NCBI GenBank assembly: GCA_949752735.1
Contig: OX457053.1
Coordinates: forward strand, 5,366,281-5,430,280
Length of the DNA stretch: 64,000 nucleotides
Source: Lumbricus terrestris
Lineage: Eukaryota > Annelida > Clitellata > Crassiclitellata > Lumbricidae
Direction of reading: 5' to 3'
The position numbers and the translations under genes are program-made. This document shows, one piece after another, positions 6,892 through 41,371 of this stretch. Positions within the stretch are counted from its first letter, which is position 1. Every line of letters begins with the position of its first letter. The notes under the pieces are model-generated. The model was not told the origin of the DNA and did no database searches. It saw nothing but the letters and a program-made list of their open reading frames with translations.

Positions 6892-7121
6892 GTGGGACGC
6901 GGTGGTGTAGTGGTGGCGTCGTTGCCGTGAAGCCGGAAGGTTCGAGGTTCCAATCCACCTCACGTCGCCATGTAGGGACCTTGGGCAAGTCCTTCACTCG
7001 CAATTGCTCAGCGCTTCGGCGTGAAACTCTGCTGCAGTGTCCGCTCTGCAGTCGGCAGCGCCTCTGAGTAGGGAGAGCTTGAAGGGGCGCTATAACAAGT
7101 GCACTTACAAACAAACAAACT
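6892..7121 (+). mobile_element. tRNA-derived SINE with LINE-like 3' tail
   Basis: The head carries a pol III box A (TGGTGTAGTGG) and a box B-like stretch (GGTTCGAGGTTCCAATCC). The central domain contains GACCTTGGGCAAGTCCTTCA, resembling the CORE/V-type domains of other SINEs. The tail (gcgcctctgagtag, then gaaggggcgctataac) ends in CAAA repeats. Close copies lie at 33992-34215 and 52282-52492, and in reverse at 4022-4478. Confidence 0.85.
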
Positions 7122-7313: not shown

Positions 7314-10300
7314 ATGTCCGGAATGTTTTGGGTCGTTTTTCTAACAGCTTATCTGGCCCAGCAGTCAGTTTCAGCACCGCCATGTAACTCGCCCACAGTT
7401 TGGCACACGGATGGCACAGACAGTCGATGCTGTCGGGCGTTTGACTGCGCTCCGGGTAAATTATCTGTCCTAGTGTAATAATTTTTATTGATTTATTTAT
7501 TAGTAGCATTTATGTAGCAACACTGCAGGACTATTTTCTCAGAAATGCTCCTGACCCAGCATGAAGGATTTTTGTTTTGATGTATTACAAATCCTTATAC
7601 TACACACTGTGGTTGTCAGAATGTGGTTCTCAAAAGTAATTTACCATTCGAAACAAATTAATATGATGTATTAATGATTGATTTATTTGTGGTAATGATA
7701 CTTTATGATTTTTACATCGCTAGTGTACTGTGACTGAATGCCCAGTTTCAGCTTTGGTTCATATGTTGTTGGCATTTTTAATGTATCTCTGCTATCCTGT
7801 AGCATAATAAATTATTTTTCCGAAAACAGGTGATGCCGAAAATAGATGATTACGTCACCATCATCAGGCTCTCAGATGCATACATCTTCTCTCAAATGTA
7901 TTTATTCTCAGTCTTAGCAGCTCTGAATAATGACAGTTTCAGAATTGGTGAGAAGGTTAGATCATGCCCATTATATAATACAGTAGTCCATCAGATTAAA
8001 GGCCTTTACTAGTGTGTCATAGGCAACTCGAGTTGAACATTCAGCATATGGGCTGTATGCTGAAAATGGAAGTGCCAGGTGTAAAGGTCATGGGAGATTA
8101 CTGGCTGCCCACGTGTTTACAGTTATAGAAAAAGTGAAGTAGTTGACATCGGGTCTTTTGAAATTGGTGTTGTGAGTAATGAAATGCTGATCTTCACATT
8201 TTATAGTAACAGCTCTATACAATTTATTTATGTGGCGTATTTAATGTTATTTACAGGCTCTCAGCCAAACATCTGTATCACTGAATTTACTGTGGCAACT
8301 TGCGCCCCATGTCCTGATGAAAGGTTCAATGACATAATTCTGTCATCAGCTCCACCAACTGGGAAAATGGAGTCGTGTAAGGTGTTCACCAGATGCGACC
8401 CAAAATGTAAGTACAAATCTTTTGTTGATATCGTCTTATTGCCGATTTATGTAAGGACCTTTTCGAGAGTGACTCATCCGAAGAGGTTACAACCTGACAC
8501 TGGAACCATGACATCAAACAGACTGGTTTTTCAGAAATAGAGGTCACTTTAATAGTGAGTTTAGCTATATTCTTATTTGACTGGCATTTATGGGCGAAAA
8601 TCAGTTGGCTGTATGCGATATTTCTTAAAAAGATCCACGTAATTACCGTATAGGATTTACTGAGCAGAACTCTGTTGAGAGTTAAACGATAATCGGAAAT
8701 CTGATTATTGGTTTCGAAAACGATTATCGGTTTTACTGTTTAGAAACCGATAATCAAATTCATTTTTAAAAATCATTGTTTTGAAAATTATGTGAGGCGA
8801 TTCATGTGTTTGTGCTGACTATATGCTTAGCGGTTGCCGTGAAAATAAACTTATTGCAAGAAGTAAATGGTGTGACTCTGCATTACCCACGTCCCGTTAT
8901 ACATAAGAGGTGGTTGACCCAAGGTACTATAGATATGAATGTGCAACTGTTCGAAAGCAGCATTGTCACACATTTCATCATATTTTAGCATTGTGTGAAG
9001 GTGAAATAAGCTAATTAATTAAAAGACAATGCGGTAATTGGTTTAAAATTAAAGTTCTAAAACGAAAAATGGTTTTCCCTAACAAAGCAAAAAAGATTTA
9101 AACCCTAGTTGAAAGACATATTCCAGACTTTTAATTGAGCAGTTGACACATAAAGCAAAAATGATGACAGTAAGAAATTTCTTTCCATTCATTTTGCTGT
9201 TTTGATGTCAAACTTGTTTTTAAATACAAAATTTTCTTAACAATACTCCATGATATCATTTTGCTGAACATTGTGACCCTGTGACTTTGAAGTCAGTGTT
9301 GTCAATGGCTGTAATTAATTTTGCTGACATCGTTTGTGATCGTTCTCACAGTTTGCGCATGTGATAGTCTGTCTTGTATATTTTGTCCTTTGTTTTTCGA
9401 TTGCAAGACCAAAAGGTAGTGAGTGATGGAAACGCAACCCACGATCGGATATGTGAATGCTTGGATGGTGACTTGCTGGGCGCCGATGCAAAGTGCTATT
9501 CACCATGTCCACCTGGAGAATTCTGGGTGAAAGATGAGAGTGAGAACTCTCATAATTTTACGAAACTTGGTGTTTGTTGATTTACAGCGACTTTAGGGAT
9601 AGAAACAGAGTGACCTATTCGATATTTCCACTTCCTGGAGTATAACCACATATTCGGTCTTACTTAGCAGTTTATTGATGCGAGTGTACTAACGACGACT
9701 GGGGAAATGAATGCAGCACATCTTTAAATTGTTAATAAATAGCTTGTCATTCATTCGTGGAATAGCACCTACTGTTTAAAAATTATAATTTGTAAAATAG
9801 TATCCTCTCACCCCTCTTTCTTTCATCAGGTGTGTGTCAACAATGAGGTTTCTACAAGAGTGCTCAGTCTCTTTCTGTCTCTGATAGCGTCCGGTGCCAT
9901 TCTTGTGTATACGGCTTTTCTGCAAGATCCTGTTAAATAGCGTTTTCTATCCATGTCTTGGATTGTCTTTCTCGAATCCGTGATCCCAGGTTCTAAATTG
10001 ATAGTATGCATGCATGTTTTGTGTATGCATGCATGCATGTACGTATTGATGTATCAGGGCATGACTCACACAAACATGCAAGCATCATATGACGTTCAAT
10101 CTGAAAGATCAAAGTAAAACTACTAGAATGTTGTCTTTGTCTTTCAGGTACATGCAACTCTTGCCCCGAGGGAACCTTTAAAGACGCTCCAGGAGGACAG
10201 ATGTGTTCGCGCTGCACCGTGTAAGCTTGGAACCTAATCTGCTGACTTCTGTTGTGCCATTTTGACATAAAAATTACCTATCTTTATTTTTATCATCTAT

Positions 10301-11375
10301 TTCTTCTCTCGGGTTCTCGCAGTGGAAGTGCTACTGAATGGCCATTGCTGTGAGTGTTGAGATTGAAATTACTAATTACCAGGGTTGTACTGGTAAATTT
10401 TGAGGTAAATACATGCTGGCCGGGAGAAAAACCGACTTCTTTGGGGGCCCGAAAATTCTGATGACCCTTTTTTTATTCATCCGACCCAAATCTTCAGGAA
10501 ATGTCCACAATCTTCTATCCGAAAACTCTGATGACCTTTTTTTAGTCATTCGCTCCGAACTCCATGAAAAATGCACCTAAATACCCGCGTATACCCTAGT
10601 TCCCTAGTTTACCACCGTATACTCTGGTTTTCAGGAGGAATTATACAATGCCATTTTTTCCCTGGAAGACTGTTCTTAAGAGGCTTCTTTTTATTTAAAT
10701 TGTAAATGTAGTTGTTAATTGCTTCAATTTCTCATAAAGACTGCCTCGAGTGAACCAACTACTCGCCAGTGCTATATAAAAATATAAAAACAGGTCTTCG
10801 AGAATCGACCTCATTTCGATTAGTCTTGCTTCAGCATCTTTCAGTTGTGTGCTCCAAAACACTTACATAGCATCCAAAAACTGTACTGTTAACTTTAAGA
10901 ATTTCTCAGAATCCAATAATGAGCCCAGAATTTAATTTTTCCTATGTTTAAAATTTAGTAGATTTTAGAAGTGGGTATTTTCAAGCTTCTTTAAAAGAAT
11001 TTTGACTTTTTTTGGACAATTCTTGCCCCTGCAAGTTTATTGTGGCCAACTCAATGGTGTGCCCACAAATCAAGGGCTGCAGTGGTATGACCTGCTTACC
11101 TTTTGGATTTACTATTGCGGATGCTGTTGTAAGTCCACACCGTGTAAAAATCTCTACCAAAATGCAGGCACATCTTTGCATCTCCAATTCGAGGAAGGTA
11201 CTTCCCTATGGTGAAAGACTTTATATCCACCTGACATCATGAAGAAATCATCATACATTGACGATATAAATGGAAGATAATCAAATAATTTATCGGATGT
11301 TGCACGTTGTTTCTTTCAGGTGCAACGCAACTGAAACGGCATGCAGTCCAACAGGCGATGCAGTTTGTGTGCGAG
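7314..11375 (+). CDS. Ectodomain exons 1-5 of the receptor (signal peptide and TNFR cysteine-rich domains)
   Basis: Exon 1 (acceptor tttcag at 7299-7304, ATG 7314) encodes a hydrophobic leader, MSGMFWVVFLTAYLAQQ, then the first cysteines (TDGTDSRCCRAFDCAPG). Exon 2 adds TVATCAPCPDERFND and ESCKVFTRCDP. Exon 3 gives SDGNATHDRICEC, the classic end of a TNFR repeat, then YSPCPPGEFWVKDE. Exon 4 gives TCNSCPEGTFKDAPGG and CSRCTV. Exon 5 gives CNATETACSPTGDAVCV. The Cys spacing and the CPxGxF and T-x-DRxCxC signatures are those of TNFR repeats; I count about three to four repeats, one incomplete. Exon 3 must use the donor at 9540 (gtgaga) rather than the one at 9528 to keep phase. NAT motifs suggest N-glycosylation. 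Confidence 0.85.
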
Positions 11376-14300
11376 GTAATTAGGGTACAAAATTGTTAGC
11401 CTCTGAAGATGGTTGTCCATTAAATTTCTAATAGCTCTTCGATAGTTGTCCGATGGCATTTTATTGCATTATAATTAAATTCTATTCAGATCTACATAAT
11501 AAACCATTTCAATTAATAGAGTTTGGCTAGCAAATTGTGTTAACAAAAGTCAATAATAGCCTATGATAGAATGAATGTTTAATAGATGACTTTAGTTGTG
11601 GTAATTATCTTTTGTAAGGGATGGAGTATCTTATTTGTACATGCGCATGGGTGGGTTCAACAAAATGTACGAGTTGCAACAGGGGAGGTGGTCGAAAATA
11701 CGATTGTTTGTGTATGCAATATTTGGATAGGCCCTCATCAAGTGTGTTCGAGTGTTCTGTTCATAATACACAGGTACTATGCGCCTGAGGTGTGGGGTAT
11801 GTTCGGTGCCTTGGAGCCAGAAGGCTGCGAGTTCGAGTCCACCTCAAGCTGCCGTGTTGTGACCCTCAGCAAGTCCTTCACTTGCAATTACTCATGCGCT
11901 TCGAGTTACCGCTTTTCTTTAAATTTATTTGACGTGGACTTGTGGGTGCATGAGTATCGAGTATGTATTCAAAATTAATTAAATTTATGCAATATGTGAT
12001 CCAATATCGAAAATTAGGATGATTATTTGAATAAATATCTAAAAGTATTGCATATGTTAAACATTTGTAGAAAAGAAAACAGAATCTGTAGCAGATCCTG
12101 GAGGTGGATTTCCGGGATGGGCAGTTGCGTAAGTGCTGCTCTATGCATTCAGATAATTAACGTACTCATCGTTCCACGTCGTAGATTCCTTCACTCTGCC
12201 ATGCCAGGTGACGTGGTGATACCTATGGTTCGAACTTCTACGGTGCTGCATAAAAGCTTCACTGTGATCAGTCCGTCTTTCTGGAATATGTTACCTAGCA
12301 CTCTTCGTAATGAATTTCTCGATCTTTTTTTGCCACAATTCCGAAAGTGTTTGAAAGCCATTCTCTTTGTTCGTGGTTTAATGTTTGTCAGGTTGAGAGT
12401 GCCTCTGGTCAGTTTCTCTGGTGCTATATAACTTTACATTTCTCTCGTATTTAAACGGAACATATTATTGAACACTTTCATTGACTAAACTTAACTGCTC
12501 AGTTTCTGTATAAAATTCTCTTTCTTACCTCTAAGATGTTTTTGGCTCAAGCTCCTCACTACCCCTGATCTTATAAGGCGGACTATCTCAGCTACCAATG
12601 GACGTCCTCCACTCTTTCGGCCGTCATGACCTTCTTGTTCCACGGTCTCGGGCTGCCACAGCCCATCATTGTGGCTTTGCATCTACTGGCCCTTTGCTGT
12701 GGAATGACCTTCCTGCTATAATTCGTGCTCAGATCTTATCTGGGGCGCTACTTTTTCTGCCCGTTGTCTTAAAACTTTTCTTTGCTGAGTGATTCTTTGC
12801 ACTCTGAGTGCCTCTGATTAGCTTGTACTGTGAGATGCGCTAAACATGAATTTGCAGATATTTAGAAGAGAATTCAGAGTTTCGTGAAAACTTAGATTCT
12901 AGAATTAAATGCCTGTTTATATTTGTAAATGAGTTAATTGTTTTTTTGTTATGTTTCAGTCTGATTGTGTTCCTATTGCTGTTGTTTGTGGTTGTGTTGG
13001 TACTTTGTATTGGCAGAAAGAAGTATGGAAAATGGTTCTGTGAGTCAAAAAATTGTTTTCTTTTACTTGCCACTTTGATATAGTCATGCTACCATTCACT
13101 CCGTGCATCGTTAGAGCAACGCATCAGCAAAATGTTGATGTTTTTACATGCGTCCACCACTAATAATATTTTAATAATCTTTTAATTTCAAACGTTCACA
13201 GCGCTGTATGATTACAATTAGTAGCACGAATGGATGATCACAAATTATTACAGGGGTCAAAATGAACTGTCGTCGCATCATCACATCCTATTGTTCTGTT
13301 TACCGACGCCAGCTGCCAAATGGAGGATTGAGTGGACCTTTGGGGGATAGCGGAAATTGACCTCACTTCTGTGTGCTTTTCGTGCCCAAATGTATACAAC
13401 TACCATAAACGCTCTTTGCAAGTGACTCATCCAGTCCTTGGTTTTACTGACTGATATGAAAACCTATTGCTAAACGAATCCTAGCACAGAGAGCTCCATT
13501 GATTTGTGTTGCTCTTCGACCGGTGGCATATTAATATCTTGTTAATTATTGTGCACTTATTGATACTCCACGCCCAATTTAACGATAGTTCGCTATTAGG
13601 TTAACAGACTTAGGTTTTGAGGAGTACCATTCCGTGCAAATTCATAGATTGCTAGCCACATGTCACATTGCATATCTTTGTGACTATATAATTTCATAAT
13701 GAGAAATAATATTATTGATGCATTTATTATATGCCAATATCTTACGAAAAAGCGAAAATGAATGGCACATGAAAGCCCAAGGTTTATACGCTGTAACCAT
13801 CTCAAAGGAGCCTGAAACCCGCTAACTATGTGGTATGTGACAAGTGGTGCTCAAACTACAGGGTGGGCCAGCATAAATGTCCCGACTTTGCAGGCGTATA
13901 ACTTCGCCAATTTTTAACATTTATTTATACTTGATGCATCAAATTAAAGGTATTTCACTCTAGTATTAACTCTAAAAAGGTCGAACTGATACTAGTTTAG
14001 GTTTTAATTATATACTTGGATCAACGCTAGCTACCGTTTTTTGTCATTACTGACGCATTATGACGCCGTTTCCCGGGAAAATTCTATTGTTTTTTGCTAA
14101 AACGCGCGTAGACACGATCATTTTGAGTGTTTGTAGGGTCCCTACCATGAATATATTCTAATCGCAAAACCGCGTCCTTTCAATTTTGCCAACAGCCGTG
14201 CACTGCCATGCGCTGCTTCAGACGCTTGCACGCTGCCAGTCGTTTCTTTGCGTAAGAGCTGGAGAGTTCGTGGGACTTCTCGTCGACAAATTACTTTAAC

Positions 14301-17300
14301 TTTAGGTCTATAATCTTTTCCAATACGCTATTCAGTGCTTCTAAGACGGCCTGTTTTGCGCTGAATTTGCATGCAGGGCCTGCCCTGGTCATTGTCTTGA
14401 CTGCAAATGTACGCGGACACACGAGCAATGTTAGCGGATGTGAGCGCCGTGCGCTCCGATTCCCATGGTTTGCAAGTAGAAAGTCCTGTTTTATTAATTT
14501 TCCGTAGCAGATAATACAAGGTATTGTTTATTCCATCCTCTGTTAGAATATTCGTTAATCATTTCAAACGAATTAAATCCCTTACCAGTTCGTAAAATTA
14601 AGATCGAAACGCGATCATCGTATGTCAACGGCGCCAGGTTGCGTCACAAATGACAGCAAAATATGGTAGCTAGCGCTGTTCCGGGCATATAATTAAAACC
14701 GAGACTAGTATCAGTTCGACCTTTTTAGAGATAATACTAGAGTGAAATACCTTTAATTTGATGCATAAAGTATAAATAAATGTTAAAAATTGGCGAAGTT
14801 ATACGCGTGCAAAGTCGGGACATTTATGCTGGCCCACCCTGTAATTGTGCAGCATTATAATGCTAAGAGTGGCTCTGTCAAGAAATGGTCACAATGTTGT
14901 CACAATTTATTGTAGCGAAAAAGTAGGCACAGAGCTGTAGTAGTCTTTGCAGCCAATTCAGGTTTCAGATTGTGCACTTATATGCTCTTAAATGTTCACT
15001 TAGGGTGTCGAAAGTGCAGTCCTTCGTCTTACAATCCAAGATCTTCCTCCGGTCCAGCACCTTCCTCTGGAACTAATGGAACTAGTGAGTGCTTTCATCT
15101 TTTCAAGCAGCACTGTCTTGGTCAAGGACTTATCTCTTCGCCAAGTGTTTGTCACAGGTGATGCCGTTGCATTATGAATTCTGTTGCAGCCATTAGTGCC
15201 CTAATTTAAACTCGTGGGACTTTGTAGGGCAGTGGTTTTCAACCTTTTTCTAGTGGCGGAACCTTTCTCAAAGCACTCATTTGCTCGCGGAACTCAGCGC
15301 ACTTCACCTGTCTAGTATTTCTGGAATTTCATGCAGTTGTAACTTGTAAAATGAGATAATATTTATATTGATAGTTTTAAACTTTTAATGTAGCTTGTGT
15401 GCACTTCTGGTGCAGCCTATGATTGTAGGTCTACATTGCAGACCTGTACATGTTTCAGAGCTGTAAAAGTGTATAGGAGACCATAGGCCCAGAACAAAAA
15501 ACACTCGGAGAACAACTGCATTTCTGCTGTTTTGCCAACAACCATCAATCCACCTAATAGATCGTTGCCTCAGAATAATCTTCGCGTATCTCCATTTTTT
15601 TTCAAAATCGAGTCTATGCTTGATTTATAGCAAAAAATTGTTTCTCTTTCATCACTTTTAATCGTTAGGAGATAAGACAAGTCGTTTTAAAGATATTCAC
15701 CGAAGCTAATTGTCGTATGTCCATGTTCAGGAATGTTTTGTCGTATCTCCAATTTCTTGTATATTTTTCGGAAAATTTTACCAAACTTCAACCTCGATTA
15801 TCTCAATGGGGTGGAGATAGGTGAAGATAATTCTCAGGCAACGAGGTTTGAAGCAGTAACAGGCTACTGTAGAATTGGATATACGACAACATGATACTGA
15901 ATTACTGATGGACATACGACAGAACTTTTTTATAAATTCGAAGCTACAGTACCGTTGTCCATTTTTTAAAACATTTTCCAAAATTTCACAAAAAACATTC
16001 TAAGTTTCAATTTAATTTTAATGCAACATTCTTTAATCAATGCCGAAGTTTTAATATGACGTCTTTGTCTGAAGTTTTATTGCACTGAATATCTTTTATT
16101 TGCGTCCATAGTTCCGTCTCGTCTCTCTGCAGTTTCTACCCTACCTTGAGCAATCTGGTCTCCTTCCTGCAAATCAATCTGGTTTTAGGGCCCACCATTC
16201 CACCGAGACTGCTCTCCTTTCTCTTCTTTCTGAAATCTATTCTGCCGTTGATAGGTCTGAGCTCACCCTATTGGCTCTCTATGATGTCTCTTCAGCCTTT
16301 GATATGGTTGATCACGATATCCTTCTCAAGCGTCTTGAAACCTCCTATGGCGTTAAGGGCCTGCCCTTATCTTGGTTTCAGTCGTACCTTTCTGAAAGAA
16401 CCCAAATGATTATATCTGGTGACTCTCGAACCAAATGGGTTGATGTTAATCTGGGTGTTCCTCAAGGTTCAGTTCTTGGGCCTCTCCTATTTATTCTTTA
16501 CACAGCTGACATTTCTTCTCTTTTTCCGATCTGTAGTGCTGCTGGCCATCTCTTTGCTGATGACGTCCAGGCATTTGTCCATGGTCCCCCCTCTTCCCAG
16601 CTGCTTCTGGTTGGGCTTATTGAATCTCTCACTAATCATCTCCACTCTTGGATGTCTTCTAATCGCCTTTCTCTTAATACTTCAAAGACTCAATTTATCT
16701 GGTTAGGTACTCCTCAGCAGCTCCATAAGCTTGATCTTATTCTTCTCTCTGCAAAATTCCCATTGTTTTCCTTCTCTTCAAGTGTGCGGGATCTGGGTGT
16801 AGTACTTGATAGCTCACTTACCTTTACTGAGCATATTTCCAATCTGACACGCTCATCATATTTTCATTTAAGACGCCTCAGAGTCATTCGTCGCTCTGTC
16901 TCCTCCTCCATCTTCACTACCTTAGTTCATGCTTTCATATGCTCTCGTATTGACTATTGCAATTCTCTTCTCATTGGTCTTCCTAAAGTTCGACTTTCAC
17001 CGATTCAGTCAGTTCTCAACTCAGCTGCTAGATTGATTGCCCGCCTTCCCAAGTACTCTCACATCTCTACCTTTATGTTTGATGAACTTCATTGGCTTCC
17101 TCTACGTGCTCGCACACAGTTCAAGATCCTCACTCTGATCCTAAAGTCTCAACGGGGTCTTGCCCCAAAATATCTGACTAAAACCTTACTTCGTCCTCAC
17201 TCAGCTTCCTCCCACCGTCCACTTCGCTCATCCAACAGACTTGACCTATTGGTTCCCCGGTCTAGAACTTCTATGGCTCAGTCTCGGTCTTTTGTCTCAA

Positions 17301-18394
17301 TTGGTCCTTCTCTCTGGAATTCTCTTTCTCCTTCTGTTCGCTCAACTCTTCTGTCTGTCAGTCTCTCCTCTGCCCTGTCTCTTCTCAAAACCTGCTTCTT
17401 CTCGCGGGGCCTTGCGCACTGGGAGCGCCTCTGAACGGTTTACCCTACTAGAGGCGCTTTATAAATGTTTAAATACAATACAATACAATACAATAGTTCC
17501 GAAACTTCTACCTCGTTTTTCTCGGAATTCCCGAAAGTGGAGATACGTGAGAATAATTCTGAGGCGACGAGATGGATAGAATGCTTAAGAATGAAAATAC
17601 GCCATATTCTGGAACAATGCTATGAATAATGGACATGTTGTGTTGAGTTACAGCATCCTTCATCAAGTTTACTGCACAATGTGTGCTTTATTTAAGTCTT
17701 GGATGATTGGTAGATAGACATGCATAGGCTGACGCATAGGCCTAATGATTCATTCTCAATGGAAACAAATTGATTTCTTTTTTAAATTTTATGGAGAGCG
17801 GTAGAAAATCCTAACTCACATAGTGGTGTAACTGGGACTTTTGTTCAATTTTGGGGGGTTCAAGGGACTTCAGTTTATTTGGGGTCTCAGCTTCATTTGG
17901 AGACAAGTCCCAGACCCAACGCTGGTTGCGTTATTGAACCTGGAAAATACTTATGTCACAATTACCGACCGTCTGAGTCTTGTTGTACACATCTTAAATA
18001 TAACATGTATGTGATCTTTGAATAGTATCGGTTAAAGATTCATGATGCAGACTTAGGCTTTACTTTTGCCAAAACTTGAAAATCTGCTACCTTTGGCTGA
18101 GAAATTTAACCACTGGCTCTTCAAACTGAACTGATCCCAAGAAGACTACACCAAATCAATAGTTAGCCTGGAGCTCAACAAATTCTGATGGAAAGTTGGC
18201 GTAATTGTTAGAACGAAGCATCCAGATAGCTCAAAACCAATTATAAAAATTCATTGTTAGTCTGAACAACATATGAAAATGTAGACCACTATTATTATAG
18301 ATACCCATTTGATGCATAGTTCTACCAAATAACATGCAATGAGCAGATTAATTCTTACATGGCCACAATACAATACATTATATATATGTATATA

Positions 18395-18430
<36 letters not shown>

Positions 18431-27400: not shown

Positions 27401-30400
27401 AATGAAGCGATGGACGATTTTATTATTGCCTCTGCTGTAGACAGAAAACTGGACTGTCATTGCCTGCATTGCGCTATATAAATATTGGTTTTACCTGTTG
27501 ATGTATATATAAGGTTGCCTATTTTAGTTAAGGCCATTGATGACGATTATGTGACCTTGAACTTAGACTTGCAGTGGAATTAGCCATGATGATGTGATTA
27601 TGTGATATTATGGCCTTTGTTAAAATAGTAGGCCTATATGTTTCTGAGTTAATGCTCGGAGGGGAAATTTGCATTAGGCCTATATTCCGCTTTATCTATA
27701 ATCTGATTTATGAAAAATAATTTTAAGAGATTTGCACAGTTAAAGTTTAATGCTCCTAATTTCTGTGTATAGAGTTTTTATATGCGTAACTATTGTCATC
27801 GCATATATATATAATTGTATGGATGCATAACTGATGATTTAAAGAGGCGCTGAATGAATGCTTTAAGGCCTATTGCGCTTAACTGCAATCTGTCGGGATT
27901 AGGCCTCTATATATATATATAGTTTGCCGTGATGAGCCCATATAATTCTGAGGATTTGAAGACAAATTTCGGCATTTTATATCAATTAAAATGTAGGCCT
28001 ACATGTTTTAATAGCCTAACGCTGAGGAATAGGCGATAAGTTAGTTATGCTGTGTAATTTTTGCATTAGGCCTAGTTTTGCGGTTTTGCCTGATTCCGCC
28101 TGCAATGGAATTATATGGTTAAACTGCGAGGCCTAATAATATAAATTAGGGCTAGAAATAATAATAATAATTAGGATCCTTTTTGTGTATAATGAAAAAG
28201 GCTGGCCGTTCAATTTCCTATTTGAGCTATAGGCAAAACGTGCCATGTAAGGTTTATCGATAATTCTAGCTTTAAAAGGTTTTGCTAAGTTTTGTTGATT
28301 GACCTAGTTTTGAGGCCTAATTTGCTGTGCATGGACTAATTTTGGGCCGGGTTAGTATAACTGCCGGTCGTTCCCACGACTTCTACAGCTGCAATTGTAG
28401 AGAGAGGGGGAGAACGACGGCGACACAATAAAGGCGATCGCGCTCGTCCTTGGCCCTGATTTATCAGTGCATATAATGTCACTTTGGATGGCCAGATTAT
28501 TGATTGCTTGAACGTAAGGAAATCAGCGGAAATATAACCTTATATTTGATTTGTTGCATAGGACTGTAATATACAGTTTTAATGCATAGATTTTATCCTA
28601 ATTTTTAGAAGAGCTTAATTAGGATTATTTTCACTTTGCGCAGAGACAACGCGACCTCTGTCGTACGATGCACATGGGCCCACATGTATAGAGATGATGT
28701 TCAATTGCCTAATTCTCACAGCCAGACGCACGCTGTAGATGCACTGCGTGGGGGGGAATAGAGACACAGGAGTCGACGCATCAAAGAGCGGCGATTAATT
28801 AGCAATCGTTGTTTCCCAGGCGCGTGGGTGGTCCCGTTAGTCTCCGCTGCATCACTGATAGAATGAAGGAAAGATAATAGGCCTTGATGCTATGCAATGA
28901 TGCCTAAGGATTTATAGTAGACTAAAGCGGCCTAACTGTTGATTTGCGCCTTAGACTAAGATCTCATATTAAAATCATGATAATCCTTTTAGGCCTAGAA
29001 TTTTTACGATTATACAATGTGACTGTTTTGTAACGTTAATTGCAATAATATGTTACGTTAGCCTATGTTTAAATGGCCTATTTTAATTCTGTGCATAATC
29101 GGTTGCATTTTTAAGTAGGCCTACTGAAAGATGTTGGGAAGGGAGCGGCTTATTAAGCTGAAGTTAGGCTTGGTCTCTTACGGTAAGCTTTGATGGGGAG
29201 CCTACGGATAGTTATAATGAGCATTGGCCTTTGGAGACTTAAGCTGTGTGTGTAGTCTCAGGTAATTTGCTATGATAGCACCGTTGTTAATGGGATTAGA
29301 GACTTAGGTTTAACTGCTTAGATGAGTCTTTAAATGTAGACGTTTGCCTACAGTGAAATGCCTAAAGAAGTCTCGATGGTAAAGGCTATGGGTGGCCTAT
29401 TAATCAGATGACCTGTTGTAAAGGTAACGAAGGTCTAGTGGTTTTTGTGGCTGTCCCGTGGGTTCTTAAGTCAATGCTTGCCGTGGAGGACTTTGTGCTT
29501 AACTAAACTCAAGGAGACCTATATATAGAATTGCTTTTGAGCTTTACTGAACTATTAGCGATGGAGCTATATAATTATAATAATAATAAATGTTTCTTTC
29601 GCTTGAACTGACATTTAACGCTAAAATGTGAACTTTCTGATGCTTACGTTGAGGACTGTTCGTTGCATATATTTTTAATTCTTGCATTTGAATCATTGAT
29701 GTAAAAATTGGAGTATGGCCTTACTAACATTTCAGGATCCATTTTTCCAATTAAAAGGATCCTGAAATCAGGGAGGGCCGAGAATAGTGTAGCGACGTAT
29801 AACTACGCTACGGGTCGCTAATATTATTTTATTTAATTTTTGATCGATTATGGGGTTTCAGGGATCTGATATATTTGTTTTATTTCTGTATTTTTGAGCT
29901 GCCTTGTGTGACCTATATTTTAATGTTGATTTGCGCTTGTCACGGGTCACAGCGACCGCTGACGTAGGCAGCAGTCGTTGCTGTTCCATTAATTGGTATA
30001 TGTTCACACGCTCTCAGCGATCGTCGGTCGCTGTCTTCAAAGGCCGTGCCGCTTGCAGTCGATGAGGGTAATTAAACTTTCGCACGCTCTCTGAGGTGGT
30101 CTGATGATCAGAGTGAGCGAGGAATACAGCCAGCCAGACAAGCACAGGCAGGGACACGGATTGAGAAGGAAACACCGTTGGCGTGTGGGTCTGTGTACGT
30201 GTGTTTTCGCAAGGTTAAACTGGTGCATTTGATGCCTACGTGATCAGCGGCAGATGGCGCCTTTCAGAAGGAGAGATAGAAGGAGAAAGATAGTGAGCTA
30301 CAGACAGACGCAGAGATACACAGGAGAGGACGCACGTGGCAGCTGATTCTTGCCGCCTTGAGACAGCTGCACAGCTGCTGGTTCGGCGCGCTCGGCTCTT

Positions 30401-33400
30401 CAGCTGCGCATGCGTAGTAGAGGGACGCTCTCCTTGTCAGGCAGTAATAAAAGAGCAGCGCAACGCTGAGAGAGGCAGTTGCGCATAGGATCTCAGGGCG
30501 GTCGGATGTATAGTGAGTTGCGCACAGGATCTCAGGGCGGTCGGATGTATTGCGGCGGTTGGTAGTTTTAGGCTCGATCAAGTTGGTGAAGCATGGCCAG
30601 GATAAGCGCCTGCTTGCACTAGTTGCGCATACACGGATTCTGTCGGCGATTCATTCTCTTTCGACATGGAGTCGATTTAATAAAAGAGTTAGTTTGTTGC
30701 GAGAAATATATCAGCGTTGTTGCGAGTTTTGCCTGCGCTTTCGCATTGGATCTACTCCTGGATTACTTGTCAAGGCCATTCTACGCCCTGTCACATGGAG
30801 TGATTTATCGTGGGCTTCGAATCGTCAGCGCTCTGTTCTCGTTCTTCGGAATTGTGTTGCGAAGCGTTTGTTCGTATTATTTGCCTAAGGGCGTCTTTCT
30901 CAAACGGCTTGGATACATAGCCGAAATTGTTGTTCATTGCGAGAAATCAGCATCGGATTTAGCTGATCCTTTCGGGCGTTTCAAACTCGACGCCTTTCTG
31001 TGTGGATATCATCTTCGTCGCTGTTCTTCGCGCACGATCGGCTTTGTCTCTTGTCTTCGGACATAAGGTACGCTTTATTGGGGAATTAATACGATCGGTT
31101 ATTAAGATATTTTGGGCTGAACTGAAATTGGCTGTGGGACTTGAGAGTCAATCGGGATTTAATTTAGGCATACTCCGGTTGATAGGTGTTTGCATTGAAT
31201 TGTTGCATTTGATTTTCATTGAATGTCTTTACAAAGGATAGGAACTGATAATTGAACTTACTGACTTTTATGTTTGATTGCGTTGAACATAATTGATGTC
31301 AATTGAAGATTCAATTGATTGTGAATAATAAGAAATATTAATTGGACAACTGACTTTGATTATTGATGGCTTTGAATGTGACGGATGTGGATTGAATGCT
31401 TGATTTGTTCATAAGAAAAACTACCTCGTTCATTGCTAGCGATATTGTCTGTGAGCTATAAAGATAGGAGTAATCTATTTAGCGCTATGGATAATTCAAG
31501 GGCTAGCACCCCGGCCCAGCCGTCTAGGCCTTCCTCATCATTGGAGGGAGTCATGGAGGCGATAACCTCTATGCACTCGTCGATGCAGACTAATGCTAAG
31601 TCGACTCATGAAGCAATGACTTCTATGCAGTCTTTTATGCAGTCTTTTATGCAGTCGTCAATTGAGACTAATGCCAGAGACACGCAAGAGGCGATTGCCA
31701 CGGTGGAGTTTAATGTCCTGGCAGTGCAATCAAATGTTAGCGATGCTATTTCCTCAGTGCAATCAAATGTTAGCGATGCTATTTCCTCAGTGCAATTAAA
31801 TGTAAGAGAAGAGATCTCGGCGGTAAGAGATAATGTCAGGGAAGCGCTGACGGAAGTTGTATCACGCTTGGAAAGATTGGAGACATCGCCGGTACCCAAG
31901 CCTGCTGTGGATTTGAACCCTGGTTACCTCACCGCTATTACCACTGCGGACGCGCCATACCACTCGACCATCGGCCTGGAAGAAACTTTGGGTGCTAGGC
32001 CTAAAGATTTCGCACACCCTGGTATATTGCGAAGAAGTGATAGATTGGCTAGTAGGCCGCCAATTTCATATAGGGAGTCCGGCAGTCGAAATAACTGGCC
32101 GCCTTTCCATCGTTGGGATTCGAACCCGGAAGTCACCTCATCCTGTCCTCCCTCTATCTCTAGAGCTCGTCCACAGCAGCACGCGGTCCCATCAGGCGAG
32201 GATCCGGAAGTGGCGACTCCGGGGAGGCCGATAGGGGCGGGCGTTACAAGTAGACCTGTGCAGTAATGCATAACACATTTAAAGGTGATGATTAGTTGTG
32301 CATATATTAAACGTCAATGTCGTTTTAGCTTTGATGTTGACTCTTTTTAGCAAGCAATATGTCACCTCACAGTTTGAATTTTATCTGAAATCATGCTTTT
32401 TTCCCAAAATCGCAGGTTTCTATAGGTCACTCTCTCAGAGTAAAGCTTTCTGTCTGTTTTAACACTTATTTTACAAAATCAGTAAACTGACTGAGCAAAA
32501 TACCCTTGAGAAATGAGTAAAATCACGTACAAATGAGTAAAATCACCAAGAGAAATGAGTAAAATCAGCTACAAATGAGTAAAATCACCAAGAGAAATGA
32601 GTAAAATCAGCTACAAATGAGTAAAATCACCAAGAGAAATGAGTAAAATCAGCTACAAATGAGTAAAATCACCTAGAGAAATGAGTAAAATCAGCTACAA
32701 ATGAGTAAAATCACCAAGAGAAATGAGTAAAATCAGCTACAAATGAGTAAAATCACCAAGAGAAATGAGTAAAATCACCTACAAATGAGTAAAATCACCA
32801 AGAGAAATGAGTAAAATCACCTACAAATGAGTAAAATCACCAAGAGAAATGAGTATCATTACTTTGAGAAATGAGCAAAATCACCAAGAGAAATGAGTAT
32901 CATTACTTTGAGATATGAGCAAAATCAGCCAGAGGAATGAACAAATTTACGCTATTGCTACCTCTATTTTTTTCAAAGTACATATGAACCCTAAGGATTG
33001 CAGAAATTAGGGAGCATTGTTTTTGGAATGGGCATAGTCTTCACAAATTATTTTATTATTGTCATTGTTAAACATTATGTCATTTGAGGCTAGCATGGAG
33101 TGTGCCTGTGATTAGTTTCTCTTACAGAGGCGCTATATGAATTACTAATAATAAGTACAGACGGAAACTGCTGTTAGGGTTGCCTTTGGGAAGAGGTCTG
33201 ATTTTTCAAAGATAATCTTTCGATTCCTAGTCTAGTGTTTGATTCTTGGCAGATGTTTTCTAAAGCTTAACATTGAGTGGTAGTCACCGCAACCCAATGT
33301 CAACAACTCCGCCACGAAGGGGACACTTCGCACCGGTCCAAAGCCCGGATAAAGGGGGGAAGGTTGACCTGAGGAGAATAGACATCTCCCGGATCGTAAA

Positions 33401-36400
33401 AACAGCACTGTCCACAATCCAATGGTAGTCATAGTTCTGATAGTTGTTTCTGTGGGTGCCATGTCTTGTTTTATTACATCCAGCAGATGCTAGTCTTTGT
33501 GCTTACGATCAATCGAAGGCAGATCGATCAACATCAAAAGATTCTTTTCAGTCTTTCGCTCCACAGACAGGACTTAGACTGAATTCTGGTCCGAACACAC
33601 TTCCAGAAGCTCCGAATTACGACTTGAAAAGTGATGGTAAATTAGCCAGTTTGTCGACTTTTGCAAGGCATTATAAACTTGGTATGCACTGAGCGAGGAT
33701 TGAGAAGATGCTGTGAACTTTAGCTGCAGTTAAAGCTGACTTGTTGCGAAGTTACTGTAGCTTCTTACATATGTCTTTTTTATGTAAAAGTGTTACAATG
33801 AAACTGATGTTTTCTTGTTTTTATCAAACTGCAACCATCATCTTAAATATTGTCATAAATATCTCTTGACAAAAGAGAATGGCTTGCTTATCTTATCTAC
33901 GGTAATTGAAGATACCATATAGTAAGTTAGGCTACTTCAATATTCATGAAGCTTGGTAAAAGCAGATTGTTTTTTATAGCCGTATCATCGTGGGGCGCGG
34001 TGGTGTAGTGGTGGCGTCGTTGCCTTGAAGCCGGAAGGTTCGAGGTTCAAATCCACCTCGCCGCGTAAGGACCTTGGGCAAGTCCTTCACTCACAATTGC
34101 TCAGCGCTTCGGCGTGAAACTCCGATGCAGTGTCCGCTCTGCATTCGGGAGCGCCTCTGAGTAGAGAGAGCTTGAAGGGGCGCTATAACAAGTGCGCATA
34201 CAAACAAACAAACAATACAAACAATAACAATTTATTTGCATTTACACTTGTGTAGACGTGGTGTTTTGCATTTAACAACGCAACAATATTTAAGACGATG
34301 GTTGTGGTTTGATATCAATAGATTTTAAATGATGTGTTCAGGATTCAAACCTGAGTCATAAATATTAGGTGCTTTCAGATAAACGCTTATGTGATGTGCT
34401 CCATCTTTTTTCGAGGAGCTTTTCTTTCAATATCTTCCTTCCTTGGTCACAGATTTCTCTGCTCTGCTGTGTAGGACATCTCGGTTATACTCCACAGTCC
34501 AGCATATAAGTCTGACTGCAGTCGCCTCATTCTCCTCAAACCAGCTGCCCAGCTACTTCCCACATGAAATCCTCGACCTCCACTTTTCCACAGGCACACG
34601 AAGACCATTCTGTTTATTATTGGGCTGGAATCGCGTCTGATAAATCGCTCTTGAAGTACTACTGGGTAAATTTGCTATTATACAATTATGCTTACAACTG
34701 CAGTTTTTAATGGAGACTAGTTTGTTGCCATGTTTAATGTTTATAGACGAGAGCATCATCACGAAATACATCAGTAGGATGCAAAGGCACTACAACGACA
34801 TACTGAAGACGTTATACATTGGAGTTTTCTTCATTGGCCATCTGTATCAGGAGAAGGTGTTAACTCGTGATCAACAAGACGATATAATGGTGCGTCCGTT
34901 TGAATACCGTAGTTTTGAAATTGCTTCCACTGTTGTTTCATGGCGACATTGTACACGTTGCATGTTCTAGTTTAATATGTTATCCCATGTGGCATGGTAA
35001 ATGACTTGCTTTAGAAGATATGACTTTGTGTCATGCAGAATGGCGGAATGATGGAGTGCATCAACGAGTCCATACTGTTTTGCTGCCATGTCATATCGAA
35101 TTTATTGCCTTGTCGGTTGTTATTCACCATTTTCCAGGATTGTATTCTTCCCTGTGCTTGAGTTTTGTTCTGGGTTATTTAAGGAGTGAATGAGAAAAAG
35201 TCTTTCCTGTTTGCAGATACTAAAGGATCAGGTGAGTGGTAAAGCAAAGATCCTTTGCATAATACAAGACGCTTTGCTACGAAGCGGTGATAAAGCAGCC
35301 GAACCTTTCCTGAACGCCTTGGTTGATCCGGATTCAAGACAGGACGCAGTTGCGATGTTAATTGATCCGGAACGGGCTACGGAGCTTATCAGAATACGAG
35401 GTTGGCATTGTGCTTCTAACTAGTTGTTTATTAAGTGTTTAGAGCTTCTTACTTTGGGGAAGGCGATGGAATCGCTGCTTATTCGCAGGATGAAGGAATG
35501 AGCCAAACAGCTTACTACAGAACAGTGGTTCCCAACCTTTTTTTGACTGCAGGGGCACTTTCTTAAGGACATGTGGGGGCCACAAGGTTAAAATTTATTT
35601 TAAATTTAATTGTCAACCGATACAGTTGTCGGTTTATTTTAATATGTTTTATTCGACTATGGATTTACTAAAAGTATATATAATTGTTAAAATTGAATCA
35701 AAATAGAATGCTTGAATGTATTTTATAAACGTCAAAATAAAATAATTTGCTGTAGAAACTAATTATGTATTCTATTCTGTCCAAAATGCTAATTTTTGAT
35801 ATATTTTTAAAAATTCTTTGAGAGGTTAGGGGCCATTTTTGACACTTTTGACCCTTGGGCCACGGGTTGGGAATCATTACTATAAAATGACGTTAGCCGT
35901 GTATTTGTTATTTACGCTTTATGCCATGGTGGTTGTTGTGCTGGGTGTAAATGCTGAGTTTATAATATCGAATGGTTTGCATGCAATATTTCTATGTGTT
36001 TGCATATAAACTTTCTCTATATTTTGATGAATGGTGCCAAAGGAATTTGTTTGGTGCATATGCATAACTGCATATGTTAAGAACTTCAGATGATCAAAAT
36101 GGTCTGTGAGTAAAGAGTGCATTGCTGGTAACTTTATGATGCGTTTTGGACTGTTGGTAATTAATGTAGGTAATTCAAGGTATAGTCACTTTCTGACTTT
36201 ACTATTATTTGTCTCGTAATTTGGAAATTCTAGGTTTGAAATTCATCTTCTTTGTCTGGACTGCAGAATTAATTTCTGGTTGAAGCGAGCCATGACTATC
36301 GTGTACCTTAACTTTCAGTGCATGCTAATTTGAATGTATATATCACTGTTTAAAAACAGTTTGAAAAGAATTTAACCTGTTGAATGACTTCGTTACTACT

Positions 36401-37137
36401 CCGATCATGCTACCAATCTGCTTCGTGAAACCTGCAATGGCTGCATGTCACCCAGCGCATAGCATGCCTGATCACATATAAAATCACTGCATAGACTTAA
36501 ATGGTAGGCAACCGGCTAGGATCCTCGTCAAGTTATAAGTTCCACGATCATCTATGAGGTTCAGGACTCACTGCATGGAACAGTCTTCCTTACCATGTGA
36601 AGATGCACTGTCTCTGGAGGAATTTAAATCAAAACTCAAGATGTGTTTAAAACAATCTTTTAACTGCCATTATCTTTTTGAACTCATGTACAGCGCCGTT
36701 GGCTTCGACTGAGCTACGGCACTATATAAATATTTTTATTATTTTTATTATTATTGGAACACGATGCTTCTATTTCCTGTAACTTGAATTGAGCAGTAAG
36801 GAAAAATTTCATGGGCTGTCTTAACTTTTCTGGTGGCCTGAATATTTTAGATGGTGGTGAAATTGCCAATGATGCTGAAGACTCCGGCCAACGTGTTGAA
36901 AGTATTCGGGATGATGTTGATTATGCAGCCGTTGTTTTGGGAAGTAATGCACCTAACCCAAATGAAACACCGGTCAAAGTTCCTGCCAGTGGTGTACATG
37001 ACCCAAACGAAACGCCGGTCAAAGATATTTTGGAGATTCCACAGATTGATTTGACGCAGAAGACAGGCGATGATGAAGATCAGTGGAATGATCCATGTGT
37101 TTCGGTAACTAAATGTGATCATCGGGACATCAGATGA
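7314..37137 (+). CDS. TNF-receptor-like transmembrane receptor with C-terminal CARD (14 coding exons)
   Basis: Coding exons: 7314-7455, 8257-8406, 9408-9539, 10148-10220, 11320-11375, 12071-12128, 12960-13039, 15004-15084, 20177-20203, 21167-21751, 33484-33636, 34747-34889, 35217-35400, 36851-37137. The lengths sum to 2151 nt (716 residues plus stop). Every junction has AG/GT and matching phase. Layout: signal peptide (about 1-21), TNFR cysteine-rich repeats (24-183), transmembrane helix (about 204-222) with a basic stop-transfer end, Ser/Gly/Pro-rich tail, CARD (about 513-613) and acidic C-terminus. TNFR proteins bind trimeric TNF-type ligands outside the cell; CARDs self-associate in apoptotic and inflammatory assemblies. 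By inference this is a cell-surface receptor that signals by CARD-CARD contact. The start was chosen because an acceptor lies 9 bases upstream and a clear signal peptide follows. The weakest points are the exon 13 donor (gttggc) and the 11.7-kb intron 10. Confidence 0.85.
11790..11935 (+). mobile_element. Degenerate copy of the tRNA-derived SINE
   Basis: Gcctgaggtgtggggtatg through gcgagttcgagtccacctc keeps the box A/box B spacing of the other SINE copies, then ctcagcaagtccttcacttg matches the central domain. The tail is lost. It lies in the receptor intron between exons 5 and 6. Confidence 0.6.
12071..13039 (+). CDS. Stalk exon 6 and transmembrane exon 7 of the receptor
   Basis: Exon 6 (12071-12128) encodes a short Gly/Pro-rich stalk (EKKTESVADPGGGFPGWAV). 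Exon 7 (12960-13039) encodes an uninterrupted hydrophobic run, ALIVFLLLLFVVVLVLCIG, then RKKYGKW, a typical single-pass helix with basic cytoplasmic residues, giving type I topology. Both exons have strong acceptors (cattttgtag type and atgtttcag) and donors (gtaagt, gtgagt), and the phase 2 junction between them fits exactly. Confidence 0.85.
12166..12440 (+). mobile_element. LINE ORF2 C-terminal fragment
   Basis: The plus frame ending near 12431 encodes SFTVISPSFWNMLPSTLR and FLPQFRKCLKAILF, the usual LINE end blocks, followed by gtgcctctggtcag and ggtgctatataac, the tail. Intronic in the receptor gene. Confidence 0.6.
12570..12850 (+). mobile_element. LINE ORF2 C-terminal fragment
   Basis: Encodes RHDLLVPRSRAATAHHCGFA and GPLLWNDLPAIIRA, then gagtgcctctgattag and gagatgcgctaaac, a decayed tail. 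It is a second, separate truncated copy directly after the one at 12166. Confidence 0.65.
13859..14841. mobile_element. 983-bp mariner/Tc1-like non-autonomous element with about 200-bp inverted repeats
   Basis: The ends are CAGGGTGGGCCAGCATAAAT and its complement, flanked by TA (13857-13858 and 14842-14843), the Tc1/mariner target duplication. The inverted repeats remain nearly identical for roughly 200 bases (through the cgctagctacc block on both sides). The interior of about 500 bp has no transposase frame. It lies in the receptor intron between exons 7 and 8. Confidence 0.85.
15004..21751 (+). CDS. Cytoplasmic linker exons 8-10 of the receptor
   Basis: Exon 8 (15004-15084) encodes a CxxC-containing, Ser/Pro-rich piece (WCRKCSPSSYNPRSSSG). 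Exon 9 is only 27 nt (20177-20203; TPSTEETVA). Exon 10 (21167-21751, 585 nt) encodes a low-complexity tail rich in Ser, Gly, Asn, Gln and Pro. It has a membrane-proximal Cys triplet (LAKYCCCKQSSHSS) and Gly/Pro repeats (SSPDGPPPGGSGGQPAS). No folded domain is visible. The Cys triplet could be palmitoylated. All three exons are symmetric (phase 1 to phase 1), so each could be skipped without a frameshift. The assignment rests on phase and splice sites, not homology. Confidence 0.7.
15231..15519. mobile_element. Probable decayed hAT-type MITE
   Basis: Starts CAGTGGTTTTCAACC and ends GGAGAACAACTG, weak inverted repeats of the type used by the 35523 and 41916 elements. I could not find a matching 8-bp duplication, so the ends are uncertain. 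Confidence 0.35.
15560..15850. repeat. Fold-back repeat with a third arm beyond the LINE
   Basis: The sequence cctcagaataatcttcgcgt (about 15567) is the inverted form of gtggagataggtgaagataa (about 15808). A third arm, gtggagatacgtgagaataa, occurs near 17537 in the same direction as the second. The pattern looks like nested or broken palindromic DNA elements that the LINE at 16117 later entered. Confidence 0.5.
16117..17492 (+). mobile_element. CR1/L2-like LINE, 5' truncated, with reverse transcriptase core and target duplication
   Basis: The open frame to 17434 covers reverse transcriptase motifs: ALYDVSSAFDMVDHDILL, GVPQGSVLGPLLF, and the catalytic FADDVQAF. The C-terminal blocks follow (SRIDYCNSLLIGLPKV, IGPSLWNSLSPSVRS, FFSRGLAHWERL, stop). 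The 3' tail is gagcgcctctgaacgg, gaggcgctttataaatg and an ACAAT pentamer repeat. A 9-bp duplication, ATAGTTCCG (16108-16116 and 17493-17501), marks the insertion. The endonuclease and 5' part are missing, so the copy is dead. Its tail is the prototype of many fragments in this window. Confidence 0.9.
18375..18426. repeat. TA dinucleotide microsatellite
   Basis: A run of alternating TATATA inside the receptor intron between exons 8 and 9. The remainder of 17600-19800 shows no gene or clear element. Confidence 0.9.
19828..19940 (+). mobile_element. LINE tail fragment
   Basis: Aactaaacttaaaactgttc, then gagcacctctgagtat and ggagcgctatataaatgtcc, then a GAAT repeat. The same arrangement occurs at 59265-59350 and 44240-44320. 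The segment at 20330-20390 is a similar but shorter tail. Confidence 0.6.
22125..22284 (-). mobile_element. LINE 3' end interrupted by the LTR element
   Basis: Minus-strand LINE tail (aaagcgcttctctctgcaag, agaagcgctccc) and ORF2 end. It appears to continue after the LTR element at 32253, so the LTR element landed in an older LINE copy. An AT microsatellite precedes it at 22112-22132. Confidence 0.6.
22285..24745 (+). repeat. 5' long terminal repeat (contains the Gag start)
   Basis: Starts TG and ends CA. It contains a TATA-like taataaaagag near 22941 and, just after it, a duplicated block (gcgcataggatctcaggg and gcgcacaggatctcaggg, about 22978-23046) at the likely transcription start. The Gag ATG at 23984 lies inside the repeat, so the first 254 Gag codons are LTR sequence. 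Confidence 0.85.
23984..27139 (+). CDS. Gag-like polyprotein of the LTR element
   Basis: 1,051 residues. The first ATG with good context is 23984 (MDNSRASTPAQPSRPSSSLE). Residues about 20-135 form a long coiled coil built from repeats (AISSVQSNVSDAISSVQ). Residues about 240-600 are disordered and Pro/Arg-rich. About 630-790 is a Ty3/Gypsy-type retrotransposon Gag domain (SFSGKTDVETFLRKFSVCAR, then a T-W-x-x-L-x-x-R-L-R-E-R-Y-G pattern). A second coiled coil follows (about 820-845), then three CCHC zinc knuckles at about 886, 918 and 1007 (CFLCHRLGHLSSAC, CFECSATDHIARLC, CFYCDDSSHLLRSC), each C-x2-C-x4-H-x4-C. Gag assembles particles and packages RNA. The frame is long and intact and is followed by no pol frame. 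Confidence 0.9.
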   Translation: MDNSRASTPAQPSRPSSSLEGVMEAITSMHSSMQTNAKSTHEAMTSMQSFMQSFMQSSIETNARDTQEAIATVEFNVLAVQSNVSDAISSVQSNVSDAISSVQLNVREEISAVRDNVREALTEVVSRLERLETSPVPKPAVDLNPGYLTAITTADAPYHSTIGLEETLGARPKDFAHPGILRRSDRLASRPPISYRESGSRNNWPPFHRWDSNPEVTSSCPPSISRARPQQHAVPSGEDPEVATPGRPIGAGVTIGPSQWGQISSRDFGDDRFEEETDYARTGEMAMSFERRKEREFADNVEIMSDDGSVDIEISKIMESRPKTVKIMDNRMHAAQQPEFRNLDMNKPIANKLSREGGDKVNPAPLASSSLPHVEYPRPDPQWRLQAPLAHVDQQRVEMAPSRVDFTQPASVMPTYQSMPDCVLDGRATSTMVGRDYARPDLPPGPAAMATVDWMQPYARPDHSNMPWRYAPTYTPSALYGSSDNRVWVDPLRCPDSFRPSDAVFPRWPTVVESARMSSCLGAQNFGFSRDAELPRCQAVMKSTPLERNETTADNKATSAVGETNALAPTYVSVGPIKIVPTTTVATQTTGDWELPSISSKGTVKELEPTASATAKEGEVKQSSTSPPKPTQFLKLGSFSGKTDVETFLRKFSVCARNNRWTDEERLNQLVVSLVEPATHLLSESNADSLDTWTALVQRLRERYGNAEQQALFQTQLSTRKQKVDEDMGVLVDDIRRLSTRAYPGSSTAHSEAIAVRAFLDALRDRTLALKIREREPRSLDEAYKVAMRLDGYQKAEDGGHEQQDRRHGRVNAIKEQEEESKVEDLERRMEQMRRQVERLEKKERQPVSAPQYRDNNRGPWRGQNGSTRNEWSNNNGSYGRGTPRCFLCHRLGHLSSACRLRPYVETETEAGPSARRCFECSATDHIARLCPLRQQQQAPPSDNLGQPVGDNHDNPSVGRVFAVRSAPAPSRDQRNGQNQERRSRRSPSSSRRRDSGRNSPREERRCFYCDDSSHLLRSCPLRNGPPEDRIWRMMGEPTGLRPPENLTSAG
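24746..24765 (+). other. Candidate primer binding site inside the Gag frame
   Basis: Immediately after the 5' LTR the sequence is ATTGGTCCCAGCCAGTGGGG. TGG shortly after the LTR end is the usual start of a site pairing with the 3' CCA of a tRNA. I could not match the tRNA. It is translated as part of Gag. Confidence 0.4.
27140..29787 (+). other. Non-coding interior of the LTR element
   Basis: 2.6 kb with no frame of note on either strand, AT-rich, and unusually dense in the palindrome AGGCCT (about eleven copies). No pol remnant is visible. It ends with an inverted repeat (TTTCAGGATCC at 29730-29740 and GGATCCTGAAA at 29757-29767) and a purine-rich stretch at 29769-29787, the likely polypurine tract. 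Confidence 0.7.
29788..32248 (+). repeat. 3' long terminal repeat with a truncated Gag start
   Basis: Copy of 22285-24745 at an offset of 7,503 bases. The Gag start is repeated at 31487 and stays open only to about 32266, where flanking DNA gives a stop after 259 residues. Confidence 0.85.
32500..32945. repeat. Minisatellite, about 42-bp composite unit
   Basis: About ten alternations of gagaaatgagtaaaatcacc and tacaaatgagtaaaatcacc type half-units, with a variant end (gagtatcattactttgag). It starts about 250 bases after the LTR element, in receptor intron 10. Confidence 0.9.
33484..35400 (+). CDS. Exons 11-13 of the receptor: linker and CARD domain
   Basis: Exon 11 (33484-33636) is a Ser/Pro-rich linker. 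Exon 12 (34747-34889) and exon 13 (35217-35400) together form a six-helix CARD pattern: ITKYISRMQRHYNDIL (helix 1), then GHLYQEKVLTRDQQDDIM with the helix 3-4 turn typical of CARDs. SGKAKILCIIQDALLRSG then matches the G-x-A-x-x-LL-x-x-L core, and AAEPFLNALVDPDSRQDAV matches the F-x-x-L end helices. The order and spacing resemble caspase-recruitment domains rather than death domains. CARDs pair with CARDs of adaptors or caspases. The split between exons 12 and 13 is phase 0. Confidence 0.85.
33992..34215 (+). mobile_element. tRNA-derived SINE (best preserved copy)
   Basis: Box A TGGTGTAGTGG and box B GGTTCGAGGTTCAAATCC, spaced as in a tRNA. A central domain with GACCTTGGGCAAGTCCTTCA follows, then the tail gcgcctctgagtagagagag and gaaggggcgctataac, then a CAAA repeat. 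In the receptor intron between exons 11 and 12. Confidence 0.9.
35523..35879. mobile_element. hAT-type MITE (decayed)
   Basis: Starts CAGTGGTTCCCAACC and ends GGTTGGGAATCATTA. The flanks ctacagaa and ctataaaa match at 6 of 8 bases, a worn 8-bp duplication. The interior is related, in reverse, to the element at 41916-42234. It follows the CARD exon. Confidence 0.65.
36500..36760 (+). mobile_element. Non-LTR retrotransposon 3' fragment
   Basis: Encodes the typical end block (HCMEQSSLPCEDALSLEEFK, then SKLKMCLKQSF) followed by ggcactatataaatattttt and a TTATTA repeat. It lies just before the last receptor exon. Confidence 0.6.
36851..37137 (+). CDS. Last exon of the receptor: acidic C-terminal tail
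   Basis: The acceptor (gaatattttag) leads into a 95-codon frame ending in TGA at 37135-37137, in the phase required by exon 13. The tail is rich in Asp and Glu and carries two copies of an eight-residue motif (NPNETPVK, then DPNETPVK) sixteen residues apart. PxExT loosely resembles the PxQxT TRAF-binding motif of CD40 but does not match it. An alternative end exists: reading through the weak exon 13 donor gives a stop at 35421-35423 after WHCASN. Confidence 0.6.
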
Positions 37138-41360: not shown

Positions 41361-41371
41361 ATTTATTTATT

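Follow-up and report, generated by a model that had tools for sequence, protein, structure and literature searches.

Death receptors such as Fas, TNFR1, DR5 and p75NTR combine cysteine-rich repeats and one membrane helix with a cytoplasmic death-fold domain. Other members of the family are built differently: osteoprotegerin (TNFRSF11B) is secreted, and the tails of CD40 and 4-1BB are short, bind TRAFs and contain no CARD. CARDs act as assembly seeds in RAIDD/CRADD, NLRs, MAVS and initiator caspases, and to our knowledge none of these lies within a TNF-receptor chain. The receptor proposed here has its nearest published counterpart in an amphioxus TNFR-caspase fusion, JGI model Brafl1_82667, whose architecture was reportedly validated by cDNA (PMC2575513). 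The role of invertebrate TNF receptors that lack death domains is listed among the open questions in a perspective article (PMC4979521).

We analyzed a 64,000-nucleotide stretch of Lumbricus terrestris DNA (hereafter the window) and consider it probable that positions 7314-37137 (+ strand) hold one gene, encoding a type I TNFR-CARD receptor whose clustered inner CARDs would recruit CARD proteins directly. The predicted chain would carry TNFR repeats outside the cell (four by eye), a membrane helix, a linker and a CARD, and perhaps an acidic tail at the end. Like the death receptors, it would unite cysteine-rich repeats, one membrane helix and a cytoplasmic death-fold domain; unlike them, it has a CARD replacing the death domain, placed after a linker of nearly 290 residues. 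By this analogy it would function as a death receptor does, with one module swapped for another, and it falls outside the death-domain receptors because no death domain was found. With the amphioxus fusion, as described in PMC2575513, it would share a TNFR ectodomain and cell-death machinery in one chain, with no need for a death-domain adaptor. The amphioxus protein carries the caspase itself, whereas the TNFR-CARD chain carries a recruiting domain and would still need a CARD partner. Given those fusions, doing without a death-domain adaptor is no novelty in principle for a TNF receptor.

An independent splice model built from GT/AG sites gave 14 exons and 733 residues with no internal stops; the earlier note had arrived at 716 residues. 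Its single in-phase chain with 13 phase-matched junctions was recovered in this rebuilding, as GT/AG sites and phase agreement were found at 13/13 junctions. By a rough score based on approximate consensus frequencies, 21 of the 26 splice sites are among the best 10% of the AG or GT sites present from 7 to 38 kb; the exceptions are four acceptors (exons 3, 6, 12 and 14) and one donor (exon 13). Codon usage was scored with a training set of 28 CARDs only, and the score favours exons 12 and 13 by construction because of that set. Exons 12-14 scored above 500/500 control segments and exons 3 and 11 above about 93-94% of them, while the remaining nine exons were inconspicuous; across exons 1-10, the fraction of controls that scored as well ranged from 0.07 to 0.82, which lends the TNFR exons no support.

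The first seven exons, all on the + strand, would encode the outer half. Exon 1 (7314-7455) holds the start codon, the presumed signal peptide (MSGMFWVVFLTAYLAQQSVSA, recognized by eye and staying under hydropathy 1.6) and the first cysteines of CRD1. Exon 2 (8257-8406) spans CRD1-CRD2 according to the splice model, the osteoprotegerin alignment and Pfam, and exon 3 (9408-9539), whose acceptor is among those outside the top 10%, spans CRD2-CRD3 according to the splice model, structure matches and Pfam. CRD4 begins in exon 4 (10148-10220), where residues 147-182 form the best TNFR_c6 stretch, and ends in exon 5 (11320-11375; splice model and Pfam). In the splice model, exon 6 (12071-12128), with its weak acceptor, encodes the juxtamembrane stalk, and exon 7 (12960-13039) encodes the membrane helix and a basic stretch (GRKKYGKWF), the former also visible in the hydropathy profile. 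There are 20 cysteines ahead of residue 183, which we grouped as four repeats by eye.

Two of the elements that the earlier note had placed in this half, the TNFR repeats and the single membrane helix, held up. In Pfam, TNFR_c6 scored 29.6 bits over 2 stretches in the whole chain and 32.5 bits over 3 stretches in the ectodomain piece alone, both over the cut-off of 29.4; the sole other cysteine-rich family listed, Ephrin_rec_like, remained under its own cut-off. Among solved structures matched at E <= 1, 19/20 were TNF receptors and 1/20 was an ephrin receptor, with osteoprotegerin (E 5e-6) ahead, followed by 4-1BB and CD40 and then DR5. Osteoprotegerin, 4-1BB and CD40 resemble the chain in being its best ectodomain sequence matches among solved structures. 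The membrane helix, at about residues 202-222, is the one stretch of the chain exceeding hydropathy 1.6 (peak 3.72 in a 19-residue window at 203) and is followed by the basic stretch. The outer half can safely be read as a predicted TNF-receptor ectodomain plus one membrane helix.

The splice model continues, also on the + strand, with four linker exons of phase 1-1: exon 8 (15004-15084), exon 9 (20177-20203; 27 nt, containing a STEE motif in the motif scan), exon 10 (21167-21751), which encodes a long Ser/Pro/Gly-rich segment, and exon 11 (33487-33636), also supported by an exon scan. The linker they form is low-complexity. Two donors in exon 10 score above the one used: that at 21574 retains phase 1 and makes the linker shorter by 59 residues, and that at 21785 loses phase 1. 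Unspliced read-through of exon 10 ends at a stop at 21789. In the cytoplasmic part, a loose TRAF-type pattern was seen 4 times against 1.1 expected, a count that 2% of 5000 shuffles reach, and 2/4 matches lie within exon 14; we place no weight on this excess because six patterns were tried. The strict TRAF2 pattern occurred once (0.74 expected), as did the caspase-site pattern (1.22 expected), and the pattern scan of the cytoplasmic part returned no TRAF2-minor, TRAF6 or RHIM pattern. TRAF-type signalling through the linker is possible, the loose pattern being somewhat over-represented.

The C-terminal CARD would be assembled from exon 12 (34747-34889, N-terminal part) and exon 13 (35217-35400, C-terminal part), both + strand and both assigned with a profile of host CARDs. 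This profile was made from 28 sequences, the 8 best and 20 hand-picked across several chromosomes, out of 150 scored host CARDs; it gave the C-terminal domain 29.2 bits over model positions 2-79, and the best of 5000 shuffles reached 13.6. A profile of the 8 best host CARDs gave 18.0 bits (maximum in 1000 shuffles, 10.9), and hhalign gave E 6e-5 with a probability of 65%. Exon 12 alone scored 20.9 bits and exon 13 alone 7.0, against 29.2 for the two joined, so the splice rebuilds a CARD domain. Exon 12 is one of the exons whose acceptor lies outside the top 10%. An alternative acceptor 9 nt downstream, which removes three residues, raises the host-profile score to 33.7 and lowers the Pfam score to 19.0, and the exact CARD acceptor is ambiguous because the two scores shift oppositely.

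The earlier note had named a CARD profile score below threshold as refuting its proposal, and in Pfam the domain did fall short, with 17.0 bits in the whole chain (E 0.0063) and 21.5 for the domain alone (E 2.4e-4) against a cut-off of 23.9; judged by that standard the proposal would fail, and the CARD itself was retained through the host profile. The Pfam cut-off is a threshold and no structural feature, and it is a poor judge in this host because the genome contains very many CARDs, with 659 first-look candidates in 1.056 Gb and all 150 of the 150 scored over the Pfam cut-off. The listed host CARDs lie mostly on C2 and C8 (also on C9 and C10) and are often close together. The proposal that a CARD stands in place of a death domain agrees with Pfam, in which the Death family had no match among those listed at E <= 1 for the whole chain or at E <= 10 for its pieces, in a search that drops most matches above E 0.1. 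By its profile match, the C-terminal domain is a divergent CARD.

The last part of the model is less firm. Exon 14 (36797-37137, + strand) would encode an acidic tail and the TGA stop, and its assignment is uncertain, as the donor (GTTGGC) and the acceptor of its splice are both weak. The acidic tail of the earlier note was not confirmed on these sites, though the codon usage of exon 14 exceeded that of 500/500 controls. A chain without exon 14 has its stop at 35423, after 627 residues. A near-perfect donor (CAG/GTGAGT) at 35231, 15 nt into exon 13, is the top-scoring of those listed there, and could act as a switch between a CARD form and a receptor form with a broken CARD or none.

The joint between the TNFR and CARD halves is the weak point of the model, and the single chain is a predicted gene. 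Intron 10 spans 11.7 kb, of which about 9,965 bp are an LTR retroelement (22285-32249, strand unassigned) with end repeats at 22285-24746 and 29788-32249. These repeats are identical across 2462 bp, so the insertion is probably recent, and exons 10 and 12 would then have stood 3.0 kb apart before it. By our own reading, AGTA flanks the element on both sides and looks like a target-site duplication. A gag-like ORF (23912-27139), starting inside the 5' repeat, has zinc knuckles over cut-off and a Ty3 capsid match below cut-off; pol was not seen, as no ORF of at least 70 aa lies wholly within 27230-29787. Next to the element, still in intron 10, a 42-base unit is repeated in tandem at 32508-32899 (9.3 copies, 96% match).

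Between the element and the CARD, exon 11 is the sole phase 1-1 open exon in 32250-34700 with sites at least as good as its own, in three overlapping forms. Single-base shuffles gave 0.14 such exons on average (50 shuffles), with a threshold taken from exon 11 and hence favouring it. Including or skipping exon 11 leaves the frame intact, because exons 8-11 all have phase 1-1 and exon 12 likewise begins in phase 1. A same-strand CARD would be expected downstream of a given point in about 0.1% of cases within 3.0 kb and 0.4% within 13 kb if the 659 candidates were evenly spread, figures that are rough in view of the clustering of CARDs, an uncounted set of TNFR genes and a window chosen as striking. 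No AATAAA or ATTAAA occurs in the 533 bp from exon 10 to the element, where 0.9 would be expected at the rate of introns 1-9, a weak observation; one poly(A) hexamer lies past the element at 32306, and five lie in the 1463 bp after exon 14 (2.5 expected). The locus is most simply read as a TNFR-CARD chain, a reading with partial support; good evidence, short of proof, leads from the predicted exons to one chain.

The same stretch could also be read as two neighbouring genes or transcripts, namely a TNFR ending after exon 10 (stop at 21789) and, from the ATG at 34710 or 34737, a small CARD protein. Both endings are open in frame, and since the two ATGs run directly into exon 12 in frame, a CARD-only product is possible. 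Under this reading, the TNFR half would have no death-fold domain and would signal via TRAF-type adaptors or act as a decoy, and the four loose TRAF-type matches, two of them in exon 14, can be cited in its favour. A stand-alone CARD gene nearby is plausible because CARDs are so numerous in the host genome, and a 10-kb LTR element now separates the halves. However, the recent look of that insertion places the halves 3 kb apart beforehand, and the only comparable phase 1-1 exon in the interval after the element leads in frame into exon 12, which led us to regard two genes as a possible but unlikely explanation. The insertion bears on a further reading as well, in which the gene has lost its function, or intron 10 has gone unspliced since the element arrived, and the TNFR half alone is made today. 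The identical end repeats of the 10-kb insertion and the 5/26 splice sites that are weak by the simple score would fit such a loss, but 14 exons persist without a frameshift or stop, and introns of around 10 kb are nothing unusual in comparably large animal genomes, which counts against an unspliced intron 10; we regard this reading as improbable.

The identity of the C-terminal domain invites a different doubt, as it could be a CARD-like but other helical domain. Its Pfam CARD score is under the gathering score, and when the CARD region was searched against solved structures (the query beginning with D for N), two unrelated proteins, the artificial repeat protein alphaRep (E 0.0033) and an entry named Lysozyme (E 0.031), ranked ahead of the nearest CARD, that of RAIDD, which reached just E 0.22. 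Against this, the host-CARD profile separates the domain clearly from its shuffles, and Pfam lists no death-fold family other than CARD for the pieces at E <= 10, most matches above E 0.1 being dropped by the tool. We give another helical domain very little credence. The resemblance to the CARDs of RAIDD/CRADD, NLRs, MAVS and initiator caspases would then lie in the use of a CARD as an assembly seed, RAIDD being the nearest, if weak, match among solved CARDs.

For the preferred reading, one TNFR-CARD gene, we infer a single transcript, a ligand, a CARD partner and an outcome, the last three by analogy with TNF receptors and CARDs in other animals. A trimeric TNF-family ligand would cluster the receptor, and the long linker would allow the inner CARDs to meet. 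The clustered CARDs would seed a CARD-CARD assembly, which would recruit a CARD caspase or CARD adaptor directly, bypassing FADD or TRADD, and the outcome would be cell death or NF-kB-type signalling. That a TNF receptor seeds a CARD assembly at the membrane in this way, directly linking an extracellular cytokine with CARD caspases or CARD adaptors in a host whose CARD repertoire is very large, is put forward tentatively. If true, it would add a further route of TNFR signalling beside death-domain and TRAF signalling, and a TNFR with its own CARD would be a concrete, testable answer for one invertebrate TNFR without a death domain. It would also demonstrate that a TNF receptor's death-fold module is exchangeable, in line with domain shuffling.

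Searches for relatives returned little. The protein database gave no match at E <= 10 for the whole chain (8000 candidates scored), the CARD region (94 candidates) or the TNFR region (first 266 residues, 255 candidates), negatives that say little on orthologues because the collection may contain few animal proteins. When the chain was compared by tblastn with the window and with L001-L012, of which L009-L012 are the 20 kb on either side, no tandem copy was found, and beyond the locus itself there were two chance-level matches, one in the window (E 4.6) and one to the CARD of L001 (E 5.1). In the literature, no TNFR-CARD protein was found among the titles and abstract openings returned or in the available portions of PMC2575513, PMC3196919, PMC8195603, PMC5787515, PMC5752451, PMC7654579 and PMC3308963, and an earlier description may exist.

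The surrounding sequence was also surveyed. Rfam at gathering score and a tRNA search with bacterial settings returned nothing. In a Pfam scan of 36 translated chunks of the + strand (1-22202 and 31501-47402), a reverse transcriptase was the single match at E <= 0.01; as the exons of the TNFR and the CARD escaped it too, the scan is insensitive to split domains. A reverse-transcriptase ORF of 440 aa (RVT_1, 76.1 bits) lies in intron 8 at 16112-17434 (+). Intron 7 contains an element at 13854-14846 that resembles a small DNA transposon, its 190-nt inverted ends showing 93% complementarity across a spacing of 613 nt. A SINE-like repeat whose head resembles a tRNA was seen by eye in two copies, just before exon 1 (6900-7120) and in intron 11 (33990-34210). 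On the opposite strand, 50501-54892 holds a MEF2-like neighbour with a MADS-box exon at 53632-53916 (SRF-TF, 73.2 bits); two further exons, a possible first one (54632-54892) and a C-terminal one (near 50501-51007), were placed by eye, without a Pfam match. Toward both ends of the window, at 4160-4240 and 63642-63740, lies a 31-base telomere-like minisatellite unit, in opposite orientation and near-identical when compared by eye.
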